The position numbers and the translations under genes are program-made. The notes beneath the pieces were generated by a model, which saw only the letters and a program-made list of their open reading frames with translations, searched no databases and was not told where the DNA came from. From the NCBI GenBank assembly GCA_023134135.1, contig JAGLVB010000006.1, positions 1 to 49,228 of the forward strand: DNA of 49,228 bases. The letters are read 5' to 3'. Positions within the stretch are counted from its first letter, which is position 1. Each line of letters starts with the position of its first letter. Shown in pieces: positions 18,797 to 27,956 of the stretch. Source of the stretch: Candidatus Aenigmatarchaeota archaeon (lineage in GTDB: Archaea; Aenigmatarchaeota; Aenigmatarchaeia; QMZS01).

Positions 18797-21700
18797 ATGA
18801 GAAAACCAATCTCAGAAGATGACTTAGAACAAATAGCCCTGGATATCCTAAAAGATTTAGGCTACAAAATAATCCACGGACCAGACATCTCCCCTGACGG
18901 AAAAAACCAGGAAAGAGAATACAACGAAGTTGTTCTAACAAAAAGACTAAGACGAGCAATAGATAAAATTAACCCAAAGATTCCAAACGAAGCAAAAGAA
19001 GAAGCAATTAAAAAAATCCTAAGACCCGAAACAAATAAACTAATCCTGAACAATTACAATTTCCACAAAATGTTAACCGAAGGCGTTGATGTGGAATACA
19101 GAAAAGGAGGAAGAATAATCGATGATAAAGTCAAACTTTTTGATGAAAAAAATAATGAATTTCTTGCGGTAAACCAGTTTACAATAATTGAAGATAACAA
19201 CAACAGAAGACCTGATATAATTTTATTCCTGAATGGATTGCCAATAGCAGTTATTGAACTTAAAAATGCAATTGATGAAAATGCCACAATCCAGAGCGCA
19301 TTCAACCAGTTCCAGACCTATATGCACCAGATTCCATCTTTATTTAGATTTAATGAAATCCTGGTAATCAGCGATGGATTGAAAGCGAGAGCAGGAACAA
19401 TAACCGCAACTAAAGAAAGATTTATGGCGTGGAAAACAATTAACAATAAACCCAATAAAGCAATGATGCAATTGGAGGTTCTTTTAAGGGGAATGTTTAA
19501 TAAAGAAACCCTGTTGGACCTAATCAATCATTTTATTGTATTTGAAAAAGACAAAAAGATAGCAAAAATACTGGCAGCATACCATCAGTACAATGCGGTA
19601 AATAATGCTGTTGAATCAACAATCAAGGCAACAAAAGGAAACAAGAAAGCCGGAGTGGTCTGGCACACCCAGGGTTCGGGAAAAAGTCTGAGCATGGTAT
19701 TCTACGCAGGAAAACTCGTCCTGAAATTAGATAACCCAACTTTGTTATTGTTAACAGACAGGAATGATTTGGATGACCAGTTATTTGGAGTTTTTAGCAG
19801 GGGAAAGGATTTATTAAGACAGACCCCAACCCAGGCAAACTCAAGAAAAAAACTAAAAGAACTTCTTAAAGTAGCCTCAGGAGGAATTGTTTTTACAACA
19901 ATCCAGAAGTTCTTCCCCGAGGAAACAAGGGAAAAATATCCTTTATTATCTGAAAGAAAAAATATTGTGGTTATTGCGGATGAAGCGCACAGGACCCAGT
20001 ATGGATTTGGAGCCAAAGTCCTGCAAAAGGAAGATAAAGCAACTTTAACCTATGGATTCGCAAAGTACCTCCGGGATGCTTTGCCAAATGCTTCATTTAT
20101 AGGTTTTACAGGAACTCCTATTGAAAAAGCGGATAAAAGCACACCCGCGGTTTTCGGAAAGTACATTGATATTTATGACATACAGCAGGCTGTTGAGGAT
20201 GGCACAACAGTAAGAATCTATTATGAGAGCAGATTATCCAAGTTGGAACTGAAGCCTGAAGAAAGACCAAAAATAGACAAAAAGTTTGAGGTGGTGACCG
20301 AGGGAGAAGAAATTGAAAATAAAGAAAAACTAAAAAGCAAGTGGTCCAACATGGAAAAAATTGTTGGAAGCGGGAAAAGAATAAAAAGAATTGCAAAAGA
20401 CATTGTCAACCACTTTGAAAAAAGACTTGAAACTTTTGAAGGAAAAGGGATGATAGTTTGCATGAGCAGGCGAATCTGCATTGATATTCACAGGGAAATT
20501 ATTAAGTTGAGACCGGAATGGTACAACAAAGATGATGATAAAGGAATAATCAAAGTTATAATGACCGGTTCTGCTCCAGACCCTTTGGAATGGCAGGAAC
20601 ATATAAGAAACAAGCCAAGGAGAAAAGCAATAGGAACTAGAATGAAAGACCCGGATGACCCGTTAAAATTAGTTATTGTAAGGGATATGTGGCTCACTGG
20701 TTTTGATGCCCCAAGCCTCCACACAATGTATATTGATAAACCAATGAAGGACCATAATCTGATGCAGGCAATCGCGAGAGTAAATAGAGTGTTCAAAGAT
20801 AAGCCCGGAGGTTTGATTGTTGATTATCTTGGAGTTGCTTATGAATTAAGGAATGCTCTCGCAACTTACACAGAAAGCGGGGGAAAAGGAAAACCAGTAT
20901 TTGAGCAGGAAGAAGCTGTTGCATTAATGCTTGAAAAATACGAGATAGTGACAGCAATGTTTCACAGTTTCAATTATAAAAAATTCTTTAAACTTAAACC
21001 AAAAGAAAAAATCTCTTTTATTCCAATAACAATTGAACACATCTTAAAACAGAAAGACGGCAAGAAAAGATATTTAGGATATGTTGCGGAACTTTCAAGA
21101 GCATTCGCTCTTGCAGCCCCTCATGAAAAAGCCATGAAGATAAAAGAGGATGTTGGTTTTTTTCAGGCAGTAAAATCAACAATTGCAAAAACTATTTCAT
21201 CTAAAGGAGAAAAAATAGAGGGAATGGATTCCGCAATAAAACAGATTTTATCAGAGGTGCTTGTATCTGATAGAGTAATAGATATATTTGAAGCAGCAGG
21301 TCTGAAAAAGCCGGATATTTCAATATTATCAGATGAATTTTTGGAAGAAGTGAGAGAACTCCCTCAAAAGAACCTCGCGTTTGAAATGCTTAAAAAACTT
21401 CTGAATGATGAAATAAGAATAAGGTCAAAAAAGAATTTGATTCAGGCAAAGTCATTCAGGGAAATGCTGGAAAAAGTAATTAAGAGATATATAAATAAAA
21501 GCATAGAGACAGCGCAGGTAATAGAAGAATTAATCAAATTGGCAAAGGATATGAAAGAAGCTGATAAACGAGGAGAAGAACTAAATTTAACAGATGATGA
21601 AATGGCATTTTATGATGCTTTAGGAACAAATGATAGTTCAGTTAAGTTATTGGGAGATGAAACTTTAAGGATAATAGCAAAGGAATTAGTTAAAGTTATT

Positions 21701-21877
21701 AGAAATAATAGAACCGTGGACTGGACTGTAAGGGAGAGTGTTCAGGCAAATCTCAGAAGATTGGTGAAGCGAATCTTAAGAAAATATGGTTATCCTCCAG
21801 ATAAACAAAAGACTGCAACAGATACTGTTTTGAAACAGGCCAATGCTCTAGCCGAAGATTGGGCGGAGAGTAATTAA
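18797..21877 (+). CDS. hsdR: type I restriction endonuclease subunit HsdR
   Basis: Nuclease motif [19 protein letters not shown]; Walker [19 protein letters not shown] box [13 protein letters not shown]; helicase motif IARVNR. Confidence 0.96.
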
Positions 21878-24968: not shown

Positions 24969-25480
24969 AGAGTGACGGGGTATTTAGAAATTGGTTAAAA
25001 CAGATTGTTTTTTGTTCATACTGCCTTGTTTCTTGATATATTTAATTACTCCTTCCAAGCCGCCATATTTACCCACGGTCCCTACATATCCTCCACCACT
25101 CCACAATGCTCCGCCCCACAATTGCTTCCTGAGTTCTGGGAATTTTCTAAACATCAATCGTCCAGTTGTTCCTTTTATCACATTCATTATTCTTGAAGGG
25201 GAATACCGGGGAAGAGCAGAAAGAAGCAAATGAATGTGGTCTCCGTCAGAACCAATTTCCTCTATATCAAATTCCCACCTTTCAGCCAATTCATTTATTA
25301 GCTGGCATAGGTAATCGATATATTCCTCTTTTACAAGTATTTTTTTCCTGTACTTCATCACGATGACGAGATGGTAGTGAACATCATATGCGCAGTGATT
25401 TGCTTTCTTAACCATTAATATTTTTGTTTTTAGTGGATTCTAATCCCCGCCACAGAGTGACGGGGTATTTGAGAATAAAA
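24945..25480 (-). mobile_element. IS200-type insertion sequence (tnpA only), boundaries approximate
   Basis: Y1 transposase flanked by identical 21-bp subterminal hairpins ccccgccacagagtgacgggg at 24960..24980 and 25445..25465. Confidence 0.88.
24984..25415 (-). CDS. tnpA: IS200/IS605-family Y1 transposase TnpA
   Basis: HYHLVIVMKYRKKIL, GSDGDHIHLLLS (HUH), Y1 region GGYVGTVGKYGGLEGVIKYIKKQ. Confidence 0.95.
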   Translation of the reverse strand: MVKKANHCAYDVHYHLVIVMKYRKKILVKEEYIDYLCQLINELAERWEFDIEEIGSDGDHIHLLLSALPRYSPSRIMNVIKGTTGRLMFRKFPELRKQLWGGALWSGGGYVGTVGKYGGLEGVIKYIKKQGSMNKKQSVLTNF

Positions 25481-27791: not shown

Positions 27792-27956
27792 TGGGCTCGG
27801 GGAGATTTTCAAATTTGGTTTCTTTTGGCTTAAGGGTTTTTCTTTTTGAAAGAAAAGCCTTAATTGAACTCCCGACCTCTGCCCTTTTCCGAATCTTTTG
27901 ATTGGTTTTTTAGTGATTCCTGTGAAGGCAGCATCATACCACTAGACTACGAGCCC
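27792..27956 (-). tRNA. tRNA-Val(CAC) with two predicted introns (36 nt at 37/38; about 57 nt in the T-loop)
   Basis: GGGCUCG/CGAGCCC acceptor, CUGCC UUCACA^ ... ^G GGCAG anticodon arm, GGGAG UUCAAU^ ... ^U CUCCC T-arm; BHB-like folds at both junctions. Confidence 0.82.

Follow-up and report, generated by a model that had tools for sequence, protein, structure and literature searches.

A two-intron tRNA-Val(CAC) gene from an uncultured Candidatus Aenigmatarchaeota archaeon carries an apparently position-locked mirror-repeat element in its T-loop intron

The window, which is the whole stretch of 49,228 nucleotides that was analysed, comes from an uncultured member of Candidatus Aenigmatarchaeota (DPANN). 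The corresponding assembly comprises 31 contigs, totals 986 kb and is 73% complete. A tRNA-Val(CAC) gene lies on the minus strand at 27792-27956 and contains two introns: one of 36 nt at position 37/38 and one of 57 nt at position 59/60. The surrounding genes include those for CDP-archaeol synthase, a proteasome subunit, a wyosine-type radical SAM enzyme and tRNA synthetases. The proteasome subunit shares 94-97% identity with its counterparts in three named Candidatus Aenigmatarchaeota MAGs. The same contig also encodes HsdR, a Type I restriction endonuclease (18797-21877, plus strand), and a Y1 transposase of the IS200/IS605 type (24984-25415, minus strand), one of six Y1 matches in the genome.

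All parts of the tRNA gene are on the minus strand. Exon 1 (27921-27956) extends from the 5′ strand of the acceptor stem to A37 and is identical in three relatives (L009, L010 and L011). Intron 1 (27885-27920), delimited by in silico removal, folds with 3-nt bulges CAG and AAG, a central UUC/GAA pairing and an inner helix GAAUC/GAUUC. The original prediction described this fold as a bulge-helix-bulge (BHB)-like motif; the bulges, the central pairs and the inner helix were recovered, but the central helix falls short of the full 4 bp, having 3 bp and an A-G mismatch. Exon 2 (27863-27884) runs from G38 to U59 and supplies the 3′ strand of the anticodon stem, the variable region, the 5′ strand of the T-stem and T-loop residues 54-59. 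It is followed by intron 2 (27806-27862), whose BHB has canonical bulges of 3 nt, AUU and AAU, and a canonical 4-bp central helix in which UGAA at 27808-27811 pairs with UUCA 54-57 at 27865-27868. This helix had been predicted, and it was borne out both by folding and by the in-register test described below. The inner helix of intron 2 is weak, with at most 2 bp in the window; the L010 intron could form AAGG/CCUU. Exon 3 (27792-27805) comprises U60, the 3′ strands of the T-stem and acceptor stem, and A73; CCA is not encoded. A split tRNA gene was ruled out, as all exons lie within 165 nt.

Removal of both introns in silico yielded a 72-nt sequence that ARAGORN called as tRNA-Val(cac). This call agrees with the original prediction of a minus-strand tRNA-Val(CAC) gene with two BHB introns, one of them in the T-loop. 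The predicted intron sizes also held: 36 nt after A37, and a second segment, put at about 57 nt, that the spliced sequence fixes at 57 nt and at 59/60. ARAGORN found no tRNA in the raw window, in the unspliced gene or in the gene from which intron 1 alone had been removed. Similarly, Rfam did not call a tRNA at the locus in the raw window, the tRNA model scoring a sub-threshold 15.7 bits. These blanks are expected because the gene is interrupted. The pre-tRNA had a predicted folding energy of -45.8 kcal/mol (z = -3.28), and none of 200 shuffled sequences folded as well. The predicted fold contains the T-stem, a 3-nt bulge, the central helix and the intron hairpin.

In L009, L010 and L011, the gene has the same location, both introns and an identical mature sequence. 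Three assemblies, G001, G004 and G007, are apparently those of L010, L009 and L011, respectively, and were not counted as independent. Across the relatives, the introns differed in sequence and also in length, which spanned 22-39 nt for intron 1 and 57-154 nt for intron 2. If the locus were a pseudogene whose T-loop had taken up a junk insert, the failure of tRNA finders there and the existence of a truncated second copy in L011 would fit. However, the exons are identical between species while the introns vary, with a sharp step at the predicted splice sites, so this reading is hard to sustain; the recurrence of the 4-bp central helix in register also speaks against it, and we consider it barely credible. 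That the exons are conserved between species is evidence for a functional gene, and it is almost certain that both introns are real and spliced. The original prediction had raised the matter of another intact tRNA-Val(CAC); none was seen in the 73%-complete assembly. Two other sites resembling exon 1 in the genome belong to other tRNAs, with anticodons CGC and CCC. The truncated tRNA-Val fragment, which occurs in L011 (from approximately 2172 downwards, minus strand) and in L138, consists of exon 1 and the start of intron 1 joined to the 3′ exon, and looks as if it had recombined between both introns.

Candidate T-loop introns were collected across the phylum using a custom intron-tolerant tRNA finder, some of whose candidates are spurious. 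Residues T54-R57 were compared with the intron end at the spot demanded by a 3-4-3 BHB. A perfect 4-bp TTCR/YGAA central helix was present in register in 36 of the 66 candidates, versus 0-2 of 66 when the register was slid. In the sampled stretches of the window's genome, five other tRNA genes, for Ile(GAT), Arg(TCG), Gly(GCC), Ser(TGA) and Leu(CAA), likewise have T-loop introns. A Val(UAC) gene of the same family (L036, in G010) apparently has three introns. Two- or three-intron tRNAs were noted there and at L028 (Val UAC, G006) and L113 (Ser TGA, G000), with introns at D-loop, anticodon loop and T-loop positions. A further T-loop intron, at L014 5022-5268 (plus strand), is made of tandem hairpin-plus-A-tail units (GGGAACTTTTAGAAAAAGTTCCATCAAAAAAAGAA).

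From these sequences, introns at 59/60 appear to be routine within the phylum. The original prediction that such an arrangement is unusual outside Thermoproteales calls for revision: position 59/60 is a recorded site of non-canonical introns, and multiple introns per tRNA are also known (PMC4090602). The introns described here resemble archaeal non-canonical BHB introns and those of the multi-intron tRNAs of Thermoproteales in their positions, 37/38 and 59/60 (PMC4090602, PMC8450103, PMC4033280), in having a short central helix between 3-nt bulges, and in occurring several to a tRNA. As in Thermoproteales, where similar introns are spread over different tRNAs (PMC4033280), similar introns were found in different tRNAs. 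They differ in their host, an aenigmatarchaeote in which one alpha-type EndA was found versus the (alpha-beta)2 or epsilon2 enzymes, and in bearing near the 5′ splice site a mirror-repeat element that also occurs outside tRNAs. Our literature search, confined to open-licence papers, found no description of tRNA introns in Aenigmarchaeota. The intron is of a known kind, in a clade for which such introns are apparently undescribed.

The genome contains one EndA-family gene. It encodes a protein of 297 aa with a lysine-rich extension followed by one N-terminal domain and one catalytic domain. The closest solved structures were 1a79, the best PDB match, and 3iey, which we take to be the M. jannaschii alpha4 enzyme and an N. 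equitans subunit, respectively. Relative to 1a79, the protein has a basic loop insertion, in character shared with 3iey. In crenarchaeal and epsilon2 endonucleases, a lysine-bearing loop gives broad specificity. Within the genus, each genome had one PF01974 and one PF02778 match, the assemblies being incomplete; in G008, EndA was not detected by either domain. A two-gene EndA was sought by domain in the genus genomes and was not found, although a very diverged partner could escape such a search. The type of splicing endonuclease, which the original prediction had proposed to check, is a single-unit alpha type with one detectable gene per genome, as expected of an alpha4-type subunit, within these incomplete assemblies. 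Efficient removal of relaxed BHBs has been credited only to (alpha-beta)2 and epsilon2 enzymes (PMC6379350). Perhaps this alpha-type EndA has a broader specificity, in line with the relaxed endonuclease that the original prediction inferred; alternatively, the introns may be close enough to canonical, or a partner may have gone undetected.

Intron 2 begins with a structured element that occurs across the phylum and that the original prediction overlooked. Its form is Y(UnCUm)-loop-R1(AmGAn)-linker-R2(AnGAm). In the window, the Y strand (UUUUCUUU) is at 27849-27856, the R1 strand (AAAGAAAA), which pairs with Y, is at 27838-27845, and the R2 strand (AAAAGAAA), a mirror image of R1, is at 27819-27826, all on the minus strand. 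The common form also has an outer stem, often set apart by a pyrimidine mismatch. The composition, with R1 the reverse complement of Y and R2 the mirror of R1, is that of a purine (class II) intrastrand triplex motif. The R1-R2 linker, for which our search pattern allowed 3-16 nt, is 11 nt in the window and exceeds the 1-6 nt loop limit of ITxF-type searches. A strict pattern matched 55 of the 156 genomes in the phylum, with up to 17 matches per genome, versus none of 156 when the pattern was reversed as a control. The strict pattern also matched 83 viral contigs, raw candidate matches from which we draw no conclusion. At six loci, the curated Rfam models gave no match to the element at E ≤ 0.5, tRNAs alone being matched. 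Energy folding backs the Y-R1 hairpin, using a method that cannot model R2, and the stability of intron 2 alone was not unusual (z = -1.41).

We evaluated the relationship of R2 to R1 in elements for which n differs from m. R2 was a mirror of R1 in 62 of 71 such elements and a direct repeat in 3. Because part of this set came from searches with the strict pattern, which are biased towards mirrors, the test was repeated on 1,249 kb of sequence not chosen by motif, chiefly from G061, G000, G030 and the window. In this unbiased sample, 25 of 32 elements were mirrors and 4 were direct. Run lengths were equal in 31 of 40 cases, versus a permutation mean of 9.9 and a maximum of 21 in 10,000 permutations; mirror-tailed elements numbered 31, versus 2 in reversed sequence. 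A direct repeat was rejected, the mirror being far commoner in both samples. In elements with several Cs, the Gs were also mirrored (L038, L067). Overall, run lengths covaried as expected of an intrastrand triplex, and a mirror, being unable to base-pair in antiparallel fashion, is the signature of the third strand of such a structure.

Comparison of the locus with relatives using blastn matched intron 2 to other T-loop, D-loop and anticodon introns, and also to sequences directly after stop codons, tRNAs and one 16S rRNA. A stop codon precedes 34 of the 95 distinct elements in the sense orientation, at a distance of 2-9 nt in 33 cases. Those in tRNA introns were in the sense orientation in 26 cases versus 1 antisense, and the 18 that lie in T-loop introns begin 5-10 nt from the splice site. 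Elements were also located behind tRNA ends (at least 3) and behind a 16S 3′ end (1); 25 of the 95 were left unclassified, several of these being further tRNA sites that the finder did not accept. At L078, approximately 374-430, the element stands directly at the 3′ end of the 16S rRNA (GGATCACCTCCTT, then the hairpin). In two orthologue pairs, it was kept at the same gene end even though loops and linkers had changed. On this sequence evidence, the element is very probably real and position-locked, and in the latter respect it looks new. Found where protein genes, tRNAs and rRNA end in related archaea, it hints at an undescribed gene-boundary signal.

In G061, inverted copies were found 8-10 nt upstream of start codons (L085, L091, L095, L096, L100 and others). 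By eye, the genes behind them read as eIF2-beta, L2, L6, L19e, S3Ae, S4e and others. These copies are candidate structured 5′ leaders of the order Y2-linker-Y1-loop-R-GGGAT..ATG. The topology would allow a U.A-U triple helix, and they could represent an undescribed regulatory leader. In the same genome, elements after stop codons (L083, L085, L096) mostly have (C)ATATTA behind R2 and then a GC-rich palindrome (GGCTCACTGGCGTTCGC-like), possibly a promoter or a second repeat.

Among bacterial intrastrand triplex motifs, the best studied is TM-ECO, which is G/C-rich, has the order Y-R-R and shows no trend in orientation or distance (PMC4666352). The element resembles TM-ECO in having Y-loop-R1-loop-R2 on one strand, an R2 that mirrors R1, and many copies per genome. 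In contrast, it is A/T-rich, its outer stem covaries, its strand and distance to gene boundaries are fixed, and it occurs in tRNA introns and after 16S rRNA. The opposite strand of the element, and the sense 5′ leaders, have the order Y2-Y1-R of MALAT1/ENE triple helices (PMC11411715), in which U.A-U and C+.G-C triples are possible. Unlike those, the element is archaeal, the sense RNA at 3′ edges has the reverse order, Y-R1-R2, and there is no poly(A) tail. The novelty lies in the fixed placement of the element, in its A/T-rich form with covariation, and in its occurrence inside tRNA introns.

The explanation that we consider probable overall is a spliced, two-intron tRNA-Val(CAC) combined with a Y-R1-R2 boundary element. 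It builds on what can be read from the sequences themselves: both introns, conserved positions, mirror covariation and position locking. We infer that the host EndA removes both introns, cutting the pre-tRNA at the BHB motifs at 37/38 and 59/60, after which the exons would be ligated. The 59/60 intron is one of a large population of T-loop introns in the phylum, many of which, this one included, carry an A/T-rich element of intrastrand triplex type near the 5′ splice site. On the simplest reading, the element may fold as RNA and close off the 3′ edge of the functional RNA that precedes it, with the hairpin turned towards that RNA and the third strand away from it. Within a tRNA intron, it could hold the A/U-rich insert in a fold of its own, leaving the T-arm free to form the BHB. 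We propose this capping or insulating role in RNA only tentatively. All-RNA purine-motif triplexes are considered unfavourable, which leaves room for a role of the element at the level of DNA.

Such a role is the main rival, since the same DNA element stands inverted ahead of genes. The element would then act as a boundary or roadblock between transcription units that forms H-DNA or a cruciform. Both orientations do occur, Y-R1-R2 after genes and inverted before start codons, the hairpin side always facing the gene; moreover, DNA is the better-documented setting for purine-motif triplexes (PMC4666352). However, a blocking structure should be harmful within tRNA transcription units, in which the 26:1 excess of sense copies lies, and we rate a DNA-level function as rather unlikely. 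The siting 2-9 nt past stop codons and past the 3′ ends of tRNAs and 16S rRNA, together with a U-rich tract, would equally suit a transcription terminator, in which case tRNA introns with the element are read through or mark split genes. A strong terminator is unlikely because the 3′ end of the tRNA would be cut off, yet at least 26 tRNA introns carry the element in sense. Furthermore, R2 lies just 12 nt from the 3′ splice region in the window, leaving no room for a promoter, the gene is contiguous, and some copies are found in short gaps between genes (L093, L096). Finally, the many copies per genome and the homogeneity of linker families inside each genome could be those of REP/MITE-like mobile DNA surviving by chance in intergenic gaps and introns. 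This origin is disfavoured and, in our view, improbable because the core and outer stem covary rather than being copied, distances to boundaries are fixed, with orthologous sites retained, and Y1 transposase is absent from the element-rich genomes G061, G030, G066 and G083, whereas G000, with six Y1 transposases, has the strict element twice.

With these results, the range of T-loop introns and of tRNAs with several introns comes to include an uncultured DPANN phylum, where they are apparently common. The occurrence of such introns alongside a single alpha-type EndA makes the idea of endonuclease-intron co-evolution testable. For the element, covarying strands and fixed spacing are, at the sequence level, a strong sign of natural intrastrand triplexes that serve a selected role. 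A more speculative and doubtful proposal is that, in Aenigmatarchaeota, one dedicated triple-helix element, placed a few nucleotides past stop codons, the 3′ ends of tRNAs and rRNA, and the 5′ exons of tRNAs, is a general boundary mark of functional RNAs, defining or protecting the upstream 3′ edge. If this is true, tRNA splicing and mRNA 3′-end formation would share one signal.
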